A stretch of 64,000 bases of DNA from Schizochytrium sp. TIO01 (lineage: Eukaryota; Sar; Bigyra; Thraustochytrida; Thraustochytriidae). The translations under genes and the position numbers were made by a program. Positions 13,173 to 58,917 of the stretch are shown here, piece by piece; the stretch's first letter is position 1, and every line of letters begins with the position of its first letter. The stretch is from the NCBI GenBank assembly GCA_004764695.1, contig SMSO01000005.1, positions 657,501 through 721,500 of the forward strand, given 5' to 3'. The notes beneath the pieces were generated by a model. It searched no databases. It worked only from the letters and a program-made list of their open reading frames with translations, and was not told the origin of the DNA.

Positions 13173-15866
13173 TTACATGTAGCCTTCATCTATACCCATA
13201 TGTTGTTGCTGTTGCTGATGGTAGTGCATTTGCTGCTGTTGGGGAGGCATTTGCGCTTGCTGTGGGTGCTCCATATGTTGTTGCTGCTGTTGCTGCTGCT
13301 GAGGGTCCCGCCGCTGGCGCTGTCGTGGCCGTTCCGTGTTCAGCTCTGTAAAGTACTCATTCAAGGAACCCGGTAGAACACCCCAACAGGAACATGTTGA
13401 AACATGATGACCACGTATCAGACAACGCGAGCAATGGTCACGTGAATTGGTACTTTCGCGAGCGCAAAATTGCTGGAAAGTATCCTCGTGACCAGCTTGT
13501 TTCGCTGACTCAATAATAATGTCCGGCACACAGAGAGACCTCATGCGATGCTTTTTGCGAGTTGTCGAGGATGACATAACATGAAACTGATCAATAGCAA
13601 GAGGAGGAAGAATGCTCGGATCTTCAATTGACTCGATAATAGATGCATTTGTTACGCTCGGATTGAGTGCCGCATCACAGGCCAACTTCAAATGAACAGC
13701 TGAAAGGGCACTATGAATAAAATTCCGCGATGAGCGGTGATCATGCACAGCAACAGCCACAACATGGGCGCACGGTAGGCCAGTCGCCTGAGGACGACCA
13801 CATGAACAAACAACACCATTGCGACCAACCACCTGTTTGACTAAGTTTGTATCCCCGTGGCCCGGTTCGGATCCAACCAACCAGGATGTGCCCACCGCAG
13901 ACTGCTCCACAAGAGGGAATGAGTTGATAACCTGAAGGCCCATAGTTGATGACTCGTCAACAACATTTAAGAGCTTGCAAAGCACCACACTAGGGAATGC
14001 CTCTGGTGCAGATAGGTTTTGAGGATCTTGACCACCACGAAAGTTCGCGTACTGGTCGGCCTTGGCTTTCCAGCCCTGAACGTATGCTTCATAAATGTCA
14101 GAGAGCAATTTTGGAACTGGCATACGAATCGCCTTATTAGAAATCTCGTGCCAATCCAACAGATCATAAACAGTAGGAGTAGGAAGTGCAGGCGTCGGAA
14201 CACCATCAGTTTCATATGCGCGGCTAATGCCAGGCATATGGCGACGTTGAAGCAGGCTACGTACACCAAAGGAAGAGCGTCCTTGCTCAGAGTTAATGTG
14301 TGCGGCGGCCCAAGCTTGCACTGGGTATTGTTTTGCTTGGCTATAAGTGTGTGCAGAATTGCTCTCCATGTTAGTCATGGCACTGTTGTGCTCAGACAAA
14401 GATGTTGCCATAGCAGCAGGGCACAGAAATGCCTTGATCTGTGCCTTCGTAGAAGCCTGTAGCGTGGATCCATCTTGAGTGTGATCCGGACCAACAAGTT
14501 TGTTGATAAGCGTCTCAAGACACAAAGCGTGATGTGCCGAGGAAAGAACCTGACTCACTGCATTGTTAAGACCAGGGCCCCAGTTGGACACAACGACAAG
14601 ATCCCCTGATGACATAAACCCTGTGAAGCAATGCAGCAAGTGATTGAGGAACCAGCGCCAATTTTGTTCGTTCTCGGTAATCACATGCGCATACGCAAGA
14701 AGAATGGCACCGCCATCACCTCCAATAGTCATTGCTGACATTAGAGCGCCACGGTACTTTCCACTACATGGTTCAGCATAGAGTGTGACGACATGCTGAC
14801 GCAAGAAACCAGCGGCTCGAATGGACATACCAGGAGCAACAAAACAGCGGTAGTACATGGTCTTTGGTGAACTACTGATTAGATCAGCGACTGAGCGTCG
14901 GTGACCAACCATGGCACCAGACCCATCACCCATATGTCCGTCATGCACATTAAGCATCTCTCGACTTGCAAGTGTGACGATTCGGTTTGCCATGCTGCTC
15001 TCATCAAAGCTATAGTTGCCAGAGAGAATCATATCACGGATAAGGTCAGGTTCAGGGCGAAGTCCTTGCAAGATCACAACGGTGTGATTGTCCTCGGAGT
15101 TTAATGCGTGAGCCCAGGCACGAATACCAGAAAAGTCATCGTGGTTGGTGACACCCATTTGCAAAAGGGCTTCTGAGAGTACACGGCGTGCGGTGGAAAG
15201 AGTCAGCTTGGGCGCTCCAATTTGATCCATGCGCGAAACCTCCTGCTTGATTTCCTCTGCTGTAGTGTTAAAGGGGTCATCCTGCTTGCGAAGCCAAGCT
15301 GCCACGTGCTTCACAATAACGTTGTTCAGGTATGCAGTTTTCATACGGGTGCCACGCTTAGCTTGAGCAGGGGGTATGGCTTGAGGGATCGAAGCAGGAA
15401 TGTCAGGCGTACAGGTATGCGTTAAGTCTGCCACAGTGACGAGCCAAGGTTGTTCCGAGTTGTCTTTCGAAACGTTGCGAGCCTTGATGCGGAATTGGCA
15501 TGCGCTTGTCTTTTTTCCGCAGCGTAGAAGTAGCTTCATTTTGTCAGACTTTCGGGCGTAAAATGTACGTGAGCCCTCGTCCTCACCTCCGTCAGGAGAG
15601 GCATTAATACGGCGGTGAAGAAGGTAAACCAGGGAGTATATATCATCTTTGCTCTTGTGTCGGGTGCCAGGTTGCAGATCGTTTTGCACATTTGCCGTAG
15701 TGTTTGCTCCAGGCTCTTCTGTCATTTGCATCACATCTGGAGTCTGTTGCTGGCGAGTTTGCTGTTGCTGATGGTCTGCCTGCTGTTGGTGCATGTGGCC
15801 TTGTCCATATAGCATCATTTGTGGAGGAGCTGGAGGCCCACTATTAGACATCATGTCAGGTCCCAT
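13173..15866 (-). CDS. MULE transposase-derived SWIM zinc-finger protein with poly-Q ends
   Basis: An 897-residue protein in the organisation of FAR1/FHY3/MUSTANG-type proteins: a Q-rich N-terminus (about 1-45), a C-C-H-C DNA-binding module (CGKKTSAC through DLTHTC, about 115-160), a MULE transposase core (about 345-460, with WRWFLNHLLHCF and VVVSNWGPGLNNAV), a SWIM finger C687-x-C689-x9-C699-x-H701, a CX2CX4HX4C zinc knuckle near residue 830, and a Q/H-rich tail. Residues aligned by eye with the first two catalytic aspartates are not Asp: LYAE (A364/E365) replaces the usual L-D, and SNW (N428) replaces S-D-R. This argues for a domesticated DNA-binding protein rather than an active transposase. 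ATG at 15866, no introns, no terminal inverted repeats noticed nearby. Role inferred: nuclear DNA binding or transcriptional regulation. Confidence 0.8.
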   Translation of the reverse strand: MGPDMMSNSGPPAPPQMMLYGQGHMHQQQADHQQQQTRQQQTPDVMQMTEEPGANTTANVQNDLQPGTRHKSKDDIYSLVYLLHRRINASPDGGEDEGSRTFYARKSDKMKLLLRCGKKTSACQFRIKARNVSKDNSEQPWLVTVADLTHTCTPDIPASIPQAIPPAQAKRGTRMKTAYLNNVIVKHVAAWLRKQDDPFNTTAEEIKQEVSRMDQIGAPKLTLSTARRVLSEALLQMGVTNHDDFSGIRAWAHALNSEDNHTVVILQGLRPEPDLIRDMILSGNYSFDESSMANRIVTLASREMLNVHDGHMGDGSGAMVGHRRSVADLISSSPKTMYYRCFVAPGMSIRAAGFLRQHVVTLYAEPCSGKYRGALMSAMTIGGDGGAILLAYAHVITENEQNWRWFLNHLLHCFTGFMSSGDLVVVSNWGPGLNNAVSQVLSSAHHALCLETLINKLVGPDHTQDGSTLQASTKAQIKAFLCPAAMATSLSEHNSAMTNMESNSAHTYSQAKQYPVQAWAAAHINSEQGRSSFGVRSLLQRRHMPGISRAYETDGVPTPALPTPTVYDLLDWHEISNKAIRMPVPKLLSDIYEAYVQGWKAKADQYANFRGGQDPQNLSAPEAFPSVVLCKLLNVVDESSTMGLQVINSFPLVEQSAVGTSWLVGSEPGHGDTNLVKQVVGRNGVVCSCGRPQATGLPCAHVVAVAVHDHRSSRNFIHSALSAVHLKLACDAALNPSVTNASIIESIEDPSILPPLAIDQFHVMSSSTTRKKHRMRSLCVPDIIIESAKQAGHEDTFQQFCARESTNSRDHCSRCLIRGHHVSTCSCWGVLPGSLNEYFTELNTERPRQRQRRDPQQQQQQQQHMEHPQQAQMPPQQQQMHYHQQQQQHMGIDEGYM

Positions 15867-20112: not shown

Positions 20113-22201
20113 TATTGTATTCCTAAGCTGGGAACTTGTGTCCGGCGCAAGTCACGGAAATAATAGGCAAATTCAATGTCATGAGGAGAGTACGAACTTT
20201 CTATGATTTACACATCTTGCAGAAACTAATGTAAGCGAGGCGCACTTTTGACAGATCAGAGAAATCTTTCATGGTATTTAATAGACGCACTCTTCTGGTC
20301 AGAAATTATGAGTTTAGATGCTTCGTCCTCTTTTTTAACCTCAAGCCAAAACGAACACGCAATGTCGCTACGTACCTGCTACCCTATCGTTTCGTTGAAC
20401 CGAGCTAACTTGTTTCATAACTTGGACACAGAATTCTTCTTCAGGGTTCTTTTTTTTACTTTTGTGGCAGTGTTGCTATCAACTAATAGCTATTGGTAGT
20501 ATTGAACCATCGTAATGCCAACCTCACCACACAACGTTAGACCTTTCATCATATTGTGAAAGTTGGTGGCTGATTAACTATCGAATGCCAAATAGTGACT
20601 CGCTAACCTTCAACATATAACGCGCGTACAATAAATAACTCTGTTGTGATCGTAGAGTTAAGAGTTAAGCTTGTGCAAAATAAAAGATTCGGAATCTACA
20701 CCATCTTTGAGAAGAAACATCACAACATTCCACTTCTAGCTAGACAATACTGTTGATCGTATTACCTCAATGATACTACCAGATTTAGTATTTATAATTC
20801 TTTAGAAAAAACAAAACTCAAGTAGAGTAATGCACAGACTAACCTCTGGCCACCATGGAAGTAAGGACGCATTTGCTGCGATTTCGGTGGCCGCTACGCC
20901 AAGCAAAGGTAGAGAAAAACAAATGAATCAGGGCGATTTGAAAGCTTTCCAATTACTACTACAGCTGGCTTACTAGTATGCATTTCTACATGCAGGACCT
21001 AGTGTTCGAAGAAAGACCTATTTTTTAATTGGGCTCTAAAAGAAACTAACTTCAAGTTGCTCTAGCTTAAGAGATACATGCTCGTAGCGCACCTTGGTAG
21101 TAGGTACGTACCTACCTACCTACCTAGGCAGGCGCCCTACTAAATAGAGCTAGCGATTGCTTACTTTTGAATTTGAAAGTCAGACTTGGTTAAATATCTA
21201 AGTTGAAGTAATCCAAGTTGAAGTGAAAGTCAGAGCAAACAAAGCTCTGGCACTGATATGATTCCTTTATTTAAAAACTTTTCCTAATTTACTCTAGAGA
21301 TAAAAGATTATTCGGAGCCTCTACAGCTATAATGAGTAGTTGGATAGTTTAGTTGATTAGCTCTAGAGAAAACTAGCAGCACCTACTAGGTACCTATCAG
21401 GAAGCTATCATTGGCTAACCAAGTACTATACTCTCCCTAGTTGTATTATAGCAGTCATTACCCATTCTCGTGCGTGCGTGCACGGAAAGAAGGCGGCAGA
21501 CTTCTTCATCTTTGTCTTCTTCGTCTTCTTCGTCTTCACCTGCATAGTGTTCTCCTGCTGCGCTCATCGTCGGCGGCCCTCCTTTCCCTTACTCTGTTGT
21601 TGCCATTGTTGCGGCTACTCCTGCTGAGAGTGGATGCATACAGCAAAAAGGATAGTTAAGCAGTCAGCCAACTCAGCCCGATCTATTTGTGAGAGTCATT
21701 GGAGAAGAGAATCACCGCGTGGACCGCTTCGTTCGTTTGTACGTTTGTACGAACCTGTGCGACCCTTGGCTCAGTTACATCAGCTGAAGGAAGTTGCCAT
21801 CAGCGCTGCACACATACAATCTACACAACTCAGGATATCCTTTTAGAAGAATTTGCTCCTAGGGTTGTCTTCTGTTGCAAGCCCTGTTTTACTCTTTTTT
21901 AAGGATATATAACCACTACTGACGGCATCTTGTTTGCCTTGTTCAAAGAAAGCAGCTCTTTTCCCTGATCTTCAATAGGCTTACACGTTTTGCCCCCTTT
22001 CATTGAGTTTAGATATTGTGTAAGGATCAACTTTAGAAGGGTTAACTCACCAGTTGAAGATCCTGAAGATCCTTCAGGAAGACACATACTTTTGAAAACG
22101 TCTTTCAAGAACAACATAGAAGCATTGTTCTCAACACAACGCTTCTCATAATATTTTCATCAACACTGATTAGGACAGGAGCTTGGCTTCATTAACAAAC
22201 C

Positions 22202-23668
22202 ATGAGTGGAAATAATTCATCGTCAACTCCTGGTCAACACGGGGTAGCTATTCCTCCTCCTCCTGTTGCGGGATCTGGAAGTGGCAGTATGGAACGAACC
22301 CGGTCAAATTCGGCTGCCCTGTCGGGTCGCCTTCGAGCTGCATCAGAAATGCAGCGCCAAGGTGTGATCTCCAAGGAAGAGAAGGCCATTATGAAATCTC
22401 TCATTTTAAACAATATTAGCGATCCTCACTTTCGCGAGCAATTCGACCTAGCTCGCAAAAGCAACGACCCAGAAATGATTCGCAGGTTATTCAAGAACAA
22501 TAACTCTCAACCTTTGATGAACGATTCGATCATGATGGACCTGACTGACATGACGCTTGGAGATGTAGATGACTTTTCTTCCTTTTTGGATGATTTTAAT
22601 GACCCTCTGATCCCCCCAACCTCGGTTACACCTAATCCGACTACGCCTGCTTACTTTGGCAGCGCCACTGCTAGGCCTCCGACTATGGATCACCACCACC
22701 AACAGCACCAGCAGCATCAGCAGCAACAGCAACAACAGCATCACCTGCATCAACACCATCCTCAACAACAACAACAGCATAGGCATTCTGTAGGCTTTGT
22801 AACCGAGTTCGGGGCACAGATGGCAGCACCTACTAAAACAAACCAAGGAAGACCAGAATATACGCGAAAACGCCAGGCCTCAAGATCTGCTCCTGGGCAG
22901 GTCATGACGAAGGTCAATGCCAATTCGGCTGGTTCAGCAGCTGTGCCGCCGAATGGTGCTGGGCCAGGTATGGGCCGGGAACGCGTTGGAAGCAGACCCA
23001 TCGACCTCCATACTGCCTCCTCAGCTGCGGCGGCAGTTGGACTTACTCCAGGTCGAGGTCGACCAATGTCGCAGGCTTACCCCCGACCCAACACGCATCA
23101 GCGCGCATCTCATGTTGGAATCAAAGTTGAAGATAGCCGTGGAGTACACCCGATGCCCTCTGCAGTAGCACCAGCAATGCCGTATTCCAACACAAGCATC
23201 TCCAGTATGCACCAGCGCTCAAGTCCAGCTATGCCCATGTACCAACACGGTATGGTGTCAAGTCATATAGTTGGGAGACCCGGTATGGGGGATCCTGCAG
23301 CACGACTTAAGGTTGGCGCCTCGCCAAGTAGTAGTGCCATGGGAGATGATGATGATGATGATGACAGATCTGGTATTGCTAAAACACGCAAAAACGAGCG
23401 CGAGCGCAAACGTCGCCTTGCAGTAACTCAGGGATTTGATGAGTTGTATAAGCTCTTGAAACGTCTCGAAGAAGAACGCCAATCTTCAGGTATTCCTGTT
23501 GGTAAAGATCCTGAGCGCATGTCAATTCTTGGAACCTCAAAGCTCGATAAGGCTAGCATCTTACGAAACTCTATAGACAAAATCAAAACTCTTGAGGTAG
23601 AGATTAATGATTTGAGGAAGGACAATGATCGCTTAAATCAAATGATTCAAGCCCACCACAAACGATAA
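22202..23668 (+). CDS. bHLH-leucine zipper transcription factor
   Basis: A 488-residue protein with a C-terminal basic helix-loop-helix (about 392-465) and a short zipper. The basic region has the E-box signature N398-x-x-E401-R402-x-R404-R405; the position usually held by His (H5) is K397. Helix 1 (GFDELYKLL) is followed by a long loop of over 20 residues and helix 2 (LDKASILRNSIDKIKTLE), with leucines continuing in heptads to the C-terminus. Upstream lie a charged helical segment (about 45-90), a D/F-rich acidic stretch (about 108-135) that could be an activation region, a His/Gln run (162-197) and a run of seven Asp (about 382-388) just before the basic region. The ATG at 22202 is in good context (ACC before, A at -3) and the frame has no introns. 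It should bind E-box-like DNA as a dimer in the nucleus; target genes cannot be inferred. Confidence 0.88.
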   Translation: MSGNNSSSTPGQHGVAIPPPPVAGSGSGSMERTRSNSAALSGRLRAASEMQRQGVISKEEKAIMKSLILNNISDPHFREQFDLARKSNDPEMIRRLFKNNNSQPLMNDSIMMDLTDMTLGDVDDFSSFLDDFNDPLIPPTSVTPNPTTPAYFGSATARPPTMDHHHQQHQQHQQQQQQQHHLHQHHPQQQQQHRHSVGFVTEFGAQMAAPTKTNQGRPEYTRKRQASRSAPGQVMTKVNANSAGSAAVPPNGAGPGMGRERVGSRPIDLHTASSAAAAVGLTPGRGRPMSQAYPRPNTHQRASHVGIKVEDSRGVHPMPSAVAPAMPYSNTSISSMHQRSSPAMPMYQHGMVSSHIVGRPGMGDPAARLKVGASPSSSAMGDDDDDDDRSGIAKTRKNERERKRRLAVTQGFDELYKLLKRLEEERQSSGIPVGKDPERMSILGTSKLDKASILRNSIDKIKTLEVEINDLRKDNDRLNQMIQAHHKR

Positions 23669-30791: not shown

Positions 30792-30821
30792 ATAAATATG
30801 TAGCTACCTACATACTTTCCT

Positions 30822-31328
30822 GCCTACTCCTCTGGTTAGCATGTCAAAGAACGAATAACATCACTCTTCTCTAGGTAGTAGGCATAGGCCACTCTTGTCA
30901 ATCCATTGATTTAGGTGCAAAGTCAAGTTTAGGACAAAGTCAAGTCAAACAATCACTCATACCGGAACTACATTACAGACATGGGTCTTCTTCTAGCTTT
31001 CTTAATTTTTTTAAAGGTAATAAATATCTCAGCGTAGATCATTTTTTCCTCTTTTTTTTTTAAATCTGTATTTTGCCTACTCCTCTGGTTAGCATGTCAA
31101 AGAACGAATAACATCACTCTTCTCTAGGTAGTAGGCATAGGCCACTCTTGTCAATCCATTGATTTAGGTGCAAAGTCAAGTTTAGGACAAAGTCAAGTCA
31201 AACAATCACTCATACCGGAACTACATTACAGACATGGGTCTTCTTCTAGCTTTCTTAATTTTTTTAAAGGTAATAAATATCTCAGCGTAGATCATTTTTT
31301 CCTCTTTTTTTTTTAAATCTGTATTTTG
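30822..31328. repeat. Perfect 253-bp tandem duplication
   Basis: The segment beginning at 30822 recurs at 31075 with a period of 253 bp. The two copies, read base by base, look identical, including the ten-T run near each end. The duplication ends at 31328 and the junction shares only one or two bases with the flanks. The unit includes a copy of the dispersed repeat core (AAAGTCAAGTCAAACAATCA, 30936-30955 and 31189-31208). Identity suggests a very recent duplication or an assembly artefact. Confidence 0.92.
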
Positions 31329-55120: not shown

Positions 55121-57522
55121 TAAAAAACTTAAGAACTATCAGAAGAGCACTGAGAAGTGTACTCTATTAGGCCAACGTCACCACTTTGGAAACAATCTGT
55201 GGTGAAACCTTTGCTATTGCTAATACCACTACTCACTACTACAACTTAATTAGATAATACCTACTAACCGAATACAGCCAAGAGTCTGCGTAATAAAATA
55301 CTAAATAACTCGACTAATGTTTTGCATGCTACAGGGACAGTAGTGGGTATCATAGAAGAACATTAAAGTACAAGGACAGACCTCGTAATAAATAATAATA
55401 ATTATTATTTCGACTGTGAAGACCTCGCTCCCTATCTATAGGCGTATACATATATACGACCAGAGGGGAGGCTGTAGTAGTAGGTATTCTGTTCTTTTTA
55501 TATATTTTGAACGAGACTTCAGAAAGAAAAAGAAAGAAACGGAGACACGATGCATTAGCTATTATAACTCTTTCAAAGCTTCGCTGGCAATCTTGAGACC
55601 GACGTGATGATATATATACAAAGAAATCGTTTGATTTGGCAATTTAAATTCTTCATTTCTCCTTTCACAAAATGAAAACACACAACAAGTTGCATGGCAA
55701 TTCCTCAGTTCTGCAGTATGTAGATATTCTACATCATCTAATAAATCAGGTCAGACAATTAATATGGTGCGCGAGCAGTTGCCCTTCTTTGGACTGGGTA
55801 GTATCATAGACGAGGTGCGAAAAGTTCATTGGCTCAAAGAGCTTAAAGGGTACGCAGGATGGCGCAGAGTATATTGATTCTATGCATACTGAACAACACA
55901 AACCATTCAACTTTTGTACAGTGCAAATGCATCATGGTAGGACATTTTACCTTTTAAGAAGATTAGTTCAATTAAAAAAATATATATATAGATAAAAGAG
56001 AAGAAGCTGATAGTATCTTCATATTCTTGACACTGCCGCTTTCCTCGAAACAAGGTCTTTGAAAGGAACGAATAATAATGTTTTCCCTCAAAATATTACA
56101 GAAATGAACATCACATGACAAATTGAAGTTTTACACTTTAAAATGTACATTAAAAAAAAATTAAATTAAAATAATATTAAAAATACTAACTTAAAATTGC
56201 AATTAAAGACTCTCAAGGACAGGATATCACATGAATATATTTCCTGGCTGTGTTTGCTTATCTAATATTTGGGTAGCTACCAATTACTATTTTGACCTGG
56301 AAATTCAGCAAAACTATTTCCTACTGAGAGTAGCCTACGATCATATGATGGTAGGTTTCGATACTGCCCTGGTTTGATTGATTTGGGTTGGAAACTTCAT
56401 TCGATCGATTGCGGGGTAAAACTTTGCCCTTCTCTATTGGTCCAGACCTTATGAAAGCCGCTATGCGAGAGTTTTCATGTTCAAACTGTCGTGGATGATG
56501 ATGATGCAACAGCTGATCTCAAATTATTTGCTGCTCGCGAATTCCAATAGTATTACAAGTGTTTCCAGTCTCAAGACTTTTAGACATGAACTAGTAAGGA
56601 CGTATGTAATAACAGTATTAGGTGAAGTAATACCTCATAGCTTTCAAATAGAGATAAATCCAATGATGGAGTGGCTTTGTCAGGGATTAGCGAAGTGTGA
56701 CTTTGTAGTAATAGAGAGTATACTAACATAACTACCTATTTTAATAAATACTAAAAAAGTGAGAAACCTAGATAATTGAAGCGTCACGCGAAAGGGCGCG
56801 TAAACTCTTACAACATTTGCAACTGCGTTGTGCCATACCCACCAAGAGGTAGAGACAGTTCAGATTAGGATTCACAATTAACGTTAAACTGTACCTTAAG
56901 GTCGCAAAAAGCCACAGCAGCGGCAGCTCTTGATAGATGAACTCATGCCGATTGCTCGCAAAGCTGGTTGTGCGCGCAATAAAATTATTGTCGTTCAAAG
57001 TGAAGGATTCGAATAGTTGTTCGTCTCCTTCAAGGATTGATTCTTAGTTTGGAAAAAAGTGACCTTTTAAACAATATTTTTTACAATTAAAGTTAAAATT
57101 ATCGAAAAGCGTGTTTTTAAACAAAAGCAATTTAAAAACTTGAAGAGTAAAAACCATTTCTCACCAGGTAGGAAGTATTACCTCTTTCTTAGTGTGACAA
57201 GTAACACATTCTCAAAACACTGAACGTCATCCAGAAATTCTTTGCGTATAACTATGATTTTCAATTAAGTTGCCCGGAAAAGAAACAACAAGAAGGAATC
57301 ATTTTTCAAACAGTCAAGCTCGCAATTTGGAAAGTATAGTAGTACCTGCTATAACGAAGTGCTGACGCTTCTCCGAAGGTCAGCAAACCCGAAACATTGG
57401 AAGGTTCACGCAACACGAGCAATTCATTAGACCACTTGTACTTTGTCTCATCTAGCGAACTTTACAGCGCTGTCGATCTAGAGGCAGGCACTCAATAACC
57501 AACCCAAAACATCTATAGCAGA

Positions 57523-58917
57523 ATGGACGATGATCTCGTGTTGCTTACCGATGACTCGGTTGCATTCTTTGAGCCTACTTATGAAGCAATGGGCAATGCA
57601 CAACACAGTACTTCCCTCAACGAACAGCATCTGAGTCTCGTCGATGTGGCTAGCGGTGAGCACCAGCAGCAATATTTCTCTAGCTTAGACCCTATGCAGG
57701 ACTTGGATTATCAACAAGATGCCAATACAGGCAGCTCTAGTACCGTGGGTTATTTTGGCAACCATAACCAACAATATCAGTCAAAATATAACCAGCAAGC
57801 CTTTTCTCTGGAATCGCATGAAAGAGTCGACTTCGCAAACCTTGAACATCAGTATCAGCCATCCAAAAGAGATGTTTTGTATGAAGGTTATCCTTCGCAC
57901 GCATCGGAATACTATTCACAAAATGTTTCCCATATATCACCCTACCAATATTCACATAGTATTCAAGAAATTGGCTACATTGAGCCTATTCCTCTCGAAT
58001 ATGGCGAATGGGAATATCAGGGTACCATGAATGGGGCACAACATTCTAGCTATGCCGCTGATAACTCTGCATTTGAGCAGGTGCCCCTCCAGGATTCCCA
58101 GTACCAAGAGCAACACCAGCATCAAAATACACTCTCTACGTACAGCCAAGAGTTCACAGAGCATCATTCGGTCGCAAATACACTGTCGCATGCTCCAGTA
58201 GCTCGAGCGAATGCGTCTTTTGACGTTTGCTCCTCGTCCTCGTCCTCCTTCCATGATGGTGATTCTACTGACGGTGAGTGTGCAACTGAAAACCGTGTCG
58301 ATCAGCAGCAACGTCTTCGTAAGCGCAAAGCTTCAGAGCTACCGGGCTCCGAAGCATCCCTCGAAGCACCTGCACAGCGAGCTTGCTTTACATTTAGTTG
58401 TGCATCAGAAGAGCTACAGCAACAGAGTCGATCTTATGAGCAACAGCAGGAGATTCAAAAAGCGCAGCAACAACAGGCACGAGAAGAAGCCCTGCGTGAA
58501 TTCCAGCAAATGACATACGAAGAGCTTCAAAAACGCAAGGCTAAGGCAAGCGCTGATTTGGAAACGACGAAACATCGTCATCGTCGGGGCCTTGTGTGCC
58601 CCAAATGCACTTTAAAATCGCGTGTCAAGTTTATGCAACAAGTACTTCTTGACAAAGCTGAAAACAACAAATTCCCTGTATCTCCTTCACATGCTGTTTC
58701 ATCGTTTCGGTTTTCTAGCGGAACTGTGTCCCCTACCAACATCACTGCGGTATTACCATCTGTGAAGCGTGTAACCTCTACTGATGGAACCGGAAGTGTT
58801 GGATCTATACGAACCGATCTGGCTGAGACTGAAGATCCTTTCGTCTTTGACTGTATGGCTTCATCAAAAGGTTCGATTCCTGTAAGCTCCTCTTTCCAGA
58901 CAACCTACTCCTCTTAA
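57523..58917 (+). CDS. Q/S/Y-rich protein with CPKC motif, function unknown
   Basis: A 464-residue protein I do not recognise. The first 230 residues are rich in Q, Y, S, H and E and probably disordered; they start with an acidic, hydrophobic segment (MDDDLVLL) of the kind seen in activation regions. A basic RKRK cluster (266-269) could be a nuclear localisation signal. Residues about 290-350 are Q/E/K-rich and likely to form a coiled coil (REFQQMTYEELQKRKAKA). A basic stretch (HRHRR) then leads into C359-P-K-C362, a single CxxC half-site, followed by KSRVKFMQQVLLDKAEN and a Ser/Thr-rich tail. Composition suggests a nuclear regulator, possibly transcriptional or RNA-related, but no domain proves this. 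ATG at 57523, no introns, convergent with the membrane-protein gene downstream. Confidence 0.75.
   Translation: MDDDLVLLTDDSVAFFEPTYEAMGNAQHSTSLNEQHLSLVDVASGEHQQQYFSSLDPMQDLDYQQDANTGSSSTVGYFGNHNQQYQSKYNQQAFSLESHERVDFANLEHQYQPSKRDVLYEGYPSHASEYYSQNVSHISPYQYSHSIQEIGYIEPIPLEYGEWEYQGTMNGAQHSSYAADNSAFEQVPLQDSQYQEQHQHQNTLSTYSQEFTEHHSVANTLSHAPVARANASFDVCSSSSSSFHDGDSTDGECATENRVDQQQRLRKRKASELPGSEASLEAPAQRACFTFSCASEELQQQSRSYEQQQEIQKAQQQQAREEALREFQQMTYEELQKRKAKASADLETTKHRHRRGLVCPKCTLKSRVKFMQQVLLDKAENNKFPVSPSHAVSSFRFSSGTVSPTNITAVLPSVKRVTSTDGTGSVGSIRTDLAETEDPFVFDCMASSKGSIPVSSSFQTTYSS

Follow-up and report, generated by a model that had tools for sequence, protein, structure and literature searches.

Schizochytrium sp. 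TIO01 probably possesses a single-copy host gene that descends from a MuDR-type MULE transposase and encodes a catalytically dead, DNA-binding regulator. The gene lies in a window of 64,000 nucleotides (the whole stretch of DNA that was analysed, contig C4:657501-721500). Domestication, as put forward in the original prediction, is the best-supported reading because the gene is present once, neither another MULE nor terminal inverted repeats (TIRs) were found, catalytic residues are lost while the zinc ligands are kept, the codon usage is host-like and the frame is intact. The features of the gene are listed in Table 1.

Table 1. Features of the MULE-derived gene, with positions in the window
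Feature	Position	Strand	Evidence
Uninterrupted ORF of 897 aa (protein P0001)	13173..15866	-	frame and host-like codon usage
N-terminal Q-rich segment (residues 24-46)	15729..15797	-	composition
MuDR/WRKY-GCM1-like zinc finger C116-x6-C123...H150-x-C152 (residues 102-152)	15411..15563	-	sequence; weak PF03108
Putative helical region (residues 174-240) C-terminal to the zinc finger	15147..15347	-	position and appearance of the sequence
MULE transposase core (residues 359-452, of which Pfam matches 369-452)	14511..14792	-	PF10551, E 2.1e-7; NF033543, E 0.018
Y363, in the column of the first catalytic Asp (position 5 of PF10551)	14778..14780	-	profile calibration
N428, in the column of the second catalytic Asp (position 71 of PF10551)	14583..14585	-	profile and published signature
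T452, His of CxxH; C449 kept	14511..14513	-	profile calibration
E574 in HEISN, unproven candidate third catalytic acid (ExxN)	14145..14147	-	sequence inspection only
SWIM zinc finger C687-x-C689-x9-C699-x-H701 (residues 687-706)	13749..13808	-	PF04434, E 5.8e-4
CCHC zinc knuckle CX2CX4HX4C (residues 812-825)	13392..13433	-	exact motif; agrees with the knuckle reported for MULEs in PMC2725143
C-terminal poly-Q/His/Met tail (residues 855-888)	13203..13304	-	composition

Domain organisation

The protein can be assigned to the MULE transposase superfamily by its PF10551 core and its C-terminal SWIM and CCHC modules. The MULE core layout and the SWIM finger, both noticed when the gene was first described, were recovered by the Pfam HMM search with scores barely above the cut-offs (31.7 bits against 27.6 for PF10551, 19.8 bits against 19.6 for PF04434); the SWIM finger reached 25.7 bits when the genome was searched with SWIM. 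The MULE core also gave a weak match to NF033543 (IS256). At the N-terminus the evidence for a MuDR-type finger is twofold. When the segment was searched in isolation, PF03108 (MuDR) gave a weak, in-register match to residues 102-135, with an E of 0.046 and 13.8 bits where the cut-off is 25, and the ligands C116-x6-C123...H150-x-C152 agree with the WRKY-GCM1 type known from MuDR and MUG proteins. Searches of the 897-aa protein gave no match to PF03101 (FAR1) at E up to 10, and no PB1 domain was found in it. A weak match to Med14 (17 bits, cut-off 25.6) was dismissed as chance.

The sequence of residues 812-825, CSRCLIRGHHVSTC, is an exact CX2CX4HX4C zinc knuckle, as predicted. Counted over the three modules, all zinc ligands (12/12) are present, a count that is biased since the motifs were located by means of their ligands. 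AlphaFold run without an alignment produced poor models, with a pLDDT of 36 for the whole protein and 38 for residues 340-720. Within the otherwise poor model helices were predicted for residues 181-220 (pLDDT about 57-74), and the region around them (residues 174-240) appears to occupy the place that the helix-turn-helix-like segment has in MULE transposases.

The two ends of the protein are indeed rich in glutamine, which makes up 26% of residues 1-50 and 44% of residues 850-897 against 4.4% in between. The DNA coding for the C-terminal glutamines resembles 12 other loci of the genome; apart from the locus itself, the DNA search matched nothing but such glutamine-coding repeats. It had been suggested that the glutamine-rich tails and an added knuckle set this protein apart as a distinctive architecture. 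This part of the original prediction was not supported. Poly-Q occurs widely in this genome and the tails therefore do not mark a new type of co-option; neither does the knuckle, because it is ordinary for MULEs rather than an addition: TvMULE1 has a CX2CX4HX4/6C motif (PMC2725143), SWIM occurs together with CCHC in the MULE-Phytophthora_2 group, and members of the Jittery group carry SWIM or a C-terminal CCHC (PMC6446971).

Loss of the catalytic residues

The catalytic columns were set by running PF10551 on fetched transposases of the IS256 family. Two of these (L103 and L104) have their catalytic aspartates in columns 5 and 71 of the profile, and the Cys and His of the CxxH motif in columns 92 and 95. 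In the 897-aa protein residue 369 corresponds to position 11 and residue 452 to position 95, and the four columns are occupied by Y363, N428, C449 and T452. The first two aspartates of the DDE triad and the His of CxxH are consequently replaced, and the Cys of CxxH is kept. The placement of Y363 was obtained by lengthening the PF10551 match six ungapped columns past its N-terminal edge, and an ungapped alignment to FHY3, used as a guide only, agrees with it. The pairwise MAFFT and BLAST comparisons with FHY3 and IS256 sequences likewise served only as a guide; the IS256 sequence was a 100% match to a real locus. For the second site there is further agreement, as N428 is the first residue of the 25-residue MULE signature D-x3-G-[LIVMF]-x6-[STAV]-[LIVMFYW]... 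(the Eisen signature), which has been published (PMC2725143).

The loss of both aspartates had been predicted correctly, and for the second one the position as well. The first had been put at A364/E365, one or two residues away from the column that the profile indicates, and the loss of the CxxH histidine had been overlooked. No acid at a shifted position was found for either of the first two sites. E574, which lies in the sequence HEISN (compare ESLN in IS256-type sequences), is a candidate for the third acid by inspection only, in a region that is highly diverged. In Muta1 each of the residues D214, D283, E419, H307 and W401 is required for transposition (PMC5225508). Because both catalytic aspartates and the CxxH histidine are replaced, the Schizochytrium protein is very probably incapable of DDE chemistry.

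Copy number and genomic surroundings

Searches of the genome (64.06 Mb in 37 contigs) with the protein, its N-terminal part, the DNA and the PF10551 profile all led to one locus only among the matches listed, in keeping with the single-copy state that had been anticipated for a domesticated gene. The PF00872 (Transposase_mut) profile found no match in the genome, the search with the N-terminal domain yielded no further relatives, and PF03108 gave chance-level matches only elsewhere in the genome. Nor were relatives of the protein found in sets of viral contigs, genome contigs and plasmids, where plasmid matches at E 10 were due to chance. Additional MULE copies that lie outside the searched stretches, are unassembled or are too diverged to score may exist. 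In the flanks up to the neighbouring genes the best inverted repeat scored 13.0, compared with 12.0-14.0 in 12 shuffles, and there were no TIRs by this measure. Many near-identical copies with TIRs, a hallmark of an active MULE that would have spoken for a transposon, were thus not seen.

The neighbours are ordinary host genes encoding a lysine methyltransferase, a bHLH protein, a 2OG oxygenase, a condensin II subunit and PACRG, the last of which fits a flagellated stage. The bHLH protein (window 22196-23668, plus strand) contains poly-Q and poly-His stretches of its own, and the window holds another Q-rich ORF (57499-58917) without a Pfam match. At 30821-31328 a 253-bp unit is repeated in exact tandem (2.0 copies, 100% match), suggesting that the unit was duplicated very recently or that the repeat is an artefact of assembly.

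Elsewhere in the genome there are two other SWIM-finger proteins, L003 (on C36) and L004 (on C31), in neither of which the exon examined contains a MULE core; at a guess, these might be host proteins of the RING-SWIM or SWS1-like kind. Beside the SWIM gene of L004 an open frame of a repeated FVCL motif (L004:2251-2640, minus strand) forms a short simple-sequence array. A segment of 18S rRNA had at least 40 matches in the genome, many of them about 10-30 kb from contig ends and subtelomeric in appearance, others internal. The 18S sequence (example L022) has a labyrinthulomycete look, and so has the subtelomeric placing of the rDNA, which is known from Aurantiochytrium.

Maintenance of the reading frame

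The frame has exactly the limits first described but lies on the minus strand, where it runs without interruption from an ATG at 15866 to a stop at 13173, and the opposite strand over the same interval is rich in stops. For 897 random codons composed like the non-coding DNA nearby, the probability of containing no stop is about 5e-27, which excludes a chance ORF. The codon-usage log score of the ORF is 0.061, that of the neighbouring host genes ranges from -0.002 to 0.066, and the synonymous null has a mean of -0.019 (sd 0.011). The codon usage of the MULE-derived ORF is therefore host-like.

It might be argued that the gene is simply a stranded MULE copy in decay, a dead element that has lost its ends and whose frame is open by happenstance. 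Such an origin would suit a single copy with no TIRs and no known relatives, and MULE elements without TIRs do exist (PMC6446971). The difficulty lies in the combination of what was lost and what was kept. A neutral model was used to estimate the joint probability that the two Asp codons and the His codon were altered while the frame stayed free of stops. It assumes that the gene was already neutral when the losses occurred and that these three columns are the right ones to examine. The probability reaches its maximum, about 2.9e-5, at around 0.028 substitutions per site; whatever the divergence, it does not exceed about 3e-5, and it is lower with indels. A decaying relic is accordingly disfavoured. 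The complete set of zinc ligands, with the bias mentioned above, the host-like codon usage and the lack of sister copies in the genome searches also argue against decay, and we regard it as unlikely. From this one sequence we infer that the gene has been maintained by selection.

Possible function

If the gene is domesticated, a mechanism can be proposed by analogy. The N-terminal finger would bind DNA in a sequence-specific manner, the RNase H-like MULE core would be retained as a structural domain, and the core and the SWIM module could make further contacts. The Q-rich tails would then recruit the transcription machinery, and the protein would regulate transcription as FAR1/FHY3 do and MUSTANG probably does. 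Both the DNA binding and the transcriptional role are guesses drawn from these better studied proteins.

Catalytically dead transposases that still bind DNA can repress their relatives. A domesticated MULE protein might in the same way act in genome defence or chromatin, by silencing or binding transposon ends or by binding nucleic acid through its knuckle, and have no part in transcription. The knuckle would be suited to single-stranded or RNA binding, and a plant domesticated transposase is reported to antagonise Polycomb (PMC4890758). However, no MULE relatives that could be repressed were found in the genome, and the Q-rich tails together with the FAR1 precedent favour transcription; a defence or chromatin role seems rather improbable, somewhat more so than decay. 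Least credible is a functional, highly diverged transposase whose chemistry is done by other acids, such as E365 close to the first site and E574 as the third. Acidic residues do adjoin the first site, the context of E574 is ExxN, and a SWIM finger with a knuckle is typical of active MULEs, but the second Asp is an Asn inside the most conserved MULE signature, the essential CxxH His is a Thr, and no other copies, TIRs or related elements were found in the genome.

Relationship to known MULE-derived genes

The loss of catalytic residues, the retention of the zinc modules, the missing termini and the intact frame make up the pattern of a domesticated MULE. The same pattern, in a single exon, is seen in MUG (PMC3435246) and in FAR1/FHY3 (PMC13306707). 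The MUSTANG (MUG) genes of angiosperms also keep a MuDR zinc finger, a MULE core and SWIM and have no transposon termini; in plant MUG genes the MuDR CCHC and the SWIM CCCH are retained and the DDE residues are mutated in most of them (PMC3435246). MUG genes, however, form multi-gene families with a dN/dS of about 0.1 and collinear orthologues, whereas the Schizochytrium gene is single copy. Further differences are the non-plant host, the Q-rich tails, the CCHC knuckle and the absence of a detectable PB1 domain from the Schizochytrium protein. With FAR1/FHY3 (FRS) it shares an N-terminal DNA-binding zinc domain, a non-catalytic MULE core and a C-terminal SWIM (PMC8599713, PMC13306707), but it has a weak PF03108 match in place of PF03101, its host is far from plants, and its role is assigned by analogy.

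Active elements of the MuDR/Jittery/Hop type and the MULEs of Phytophthora resemble the protein in combining zinc finger, MULE core, SWIM and CCHC (groups 35, 36 and 39, PMC6446971); unlike them it has lost two catalytic aspartates and the CxxH histidine, and TIRs and other copies were not found. The IS256 family (ISCth4, PDB 6xg8) has a core that is likewise RNase H-like, with D, D and C/DxxH laid out in the same way, but its members are bacterial, catalytically active and without SWIM or knuckle, and the similarity is weak (NF033543, E 0.018).

The domesticated MULE genes from the literature that were compared come from plants. A separate co-option, as originally proposed, is plausible from the taxonomy of the host. 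More specifically, we tentatively suggest, at somewhat less than even confidence, a MULE domestication in labyrinthulomycete stramenopiles that was independent of the FAR1 and MUSTANG events and led to a lineage-specific transcription regulator, the last trace of a MULE in the genome. The kind of gene is already known from plants, and what remains of interest is a single-copy case that probably lies outside them. If the domestication is real in a single-copy protist gene, probably of a stramenopile, it would mean that the MULE family has repeatedly been converted into a DNA-binding protein along one and the same path, namely the loss of the acids and the retention of the zinc modules. The gene would also be tractable for knock-out, as there is one copy and there are no active relatives to confuse the results.
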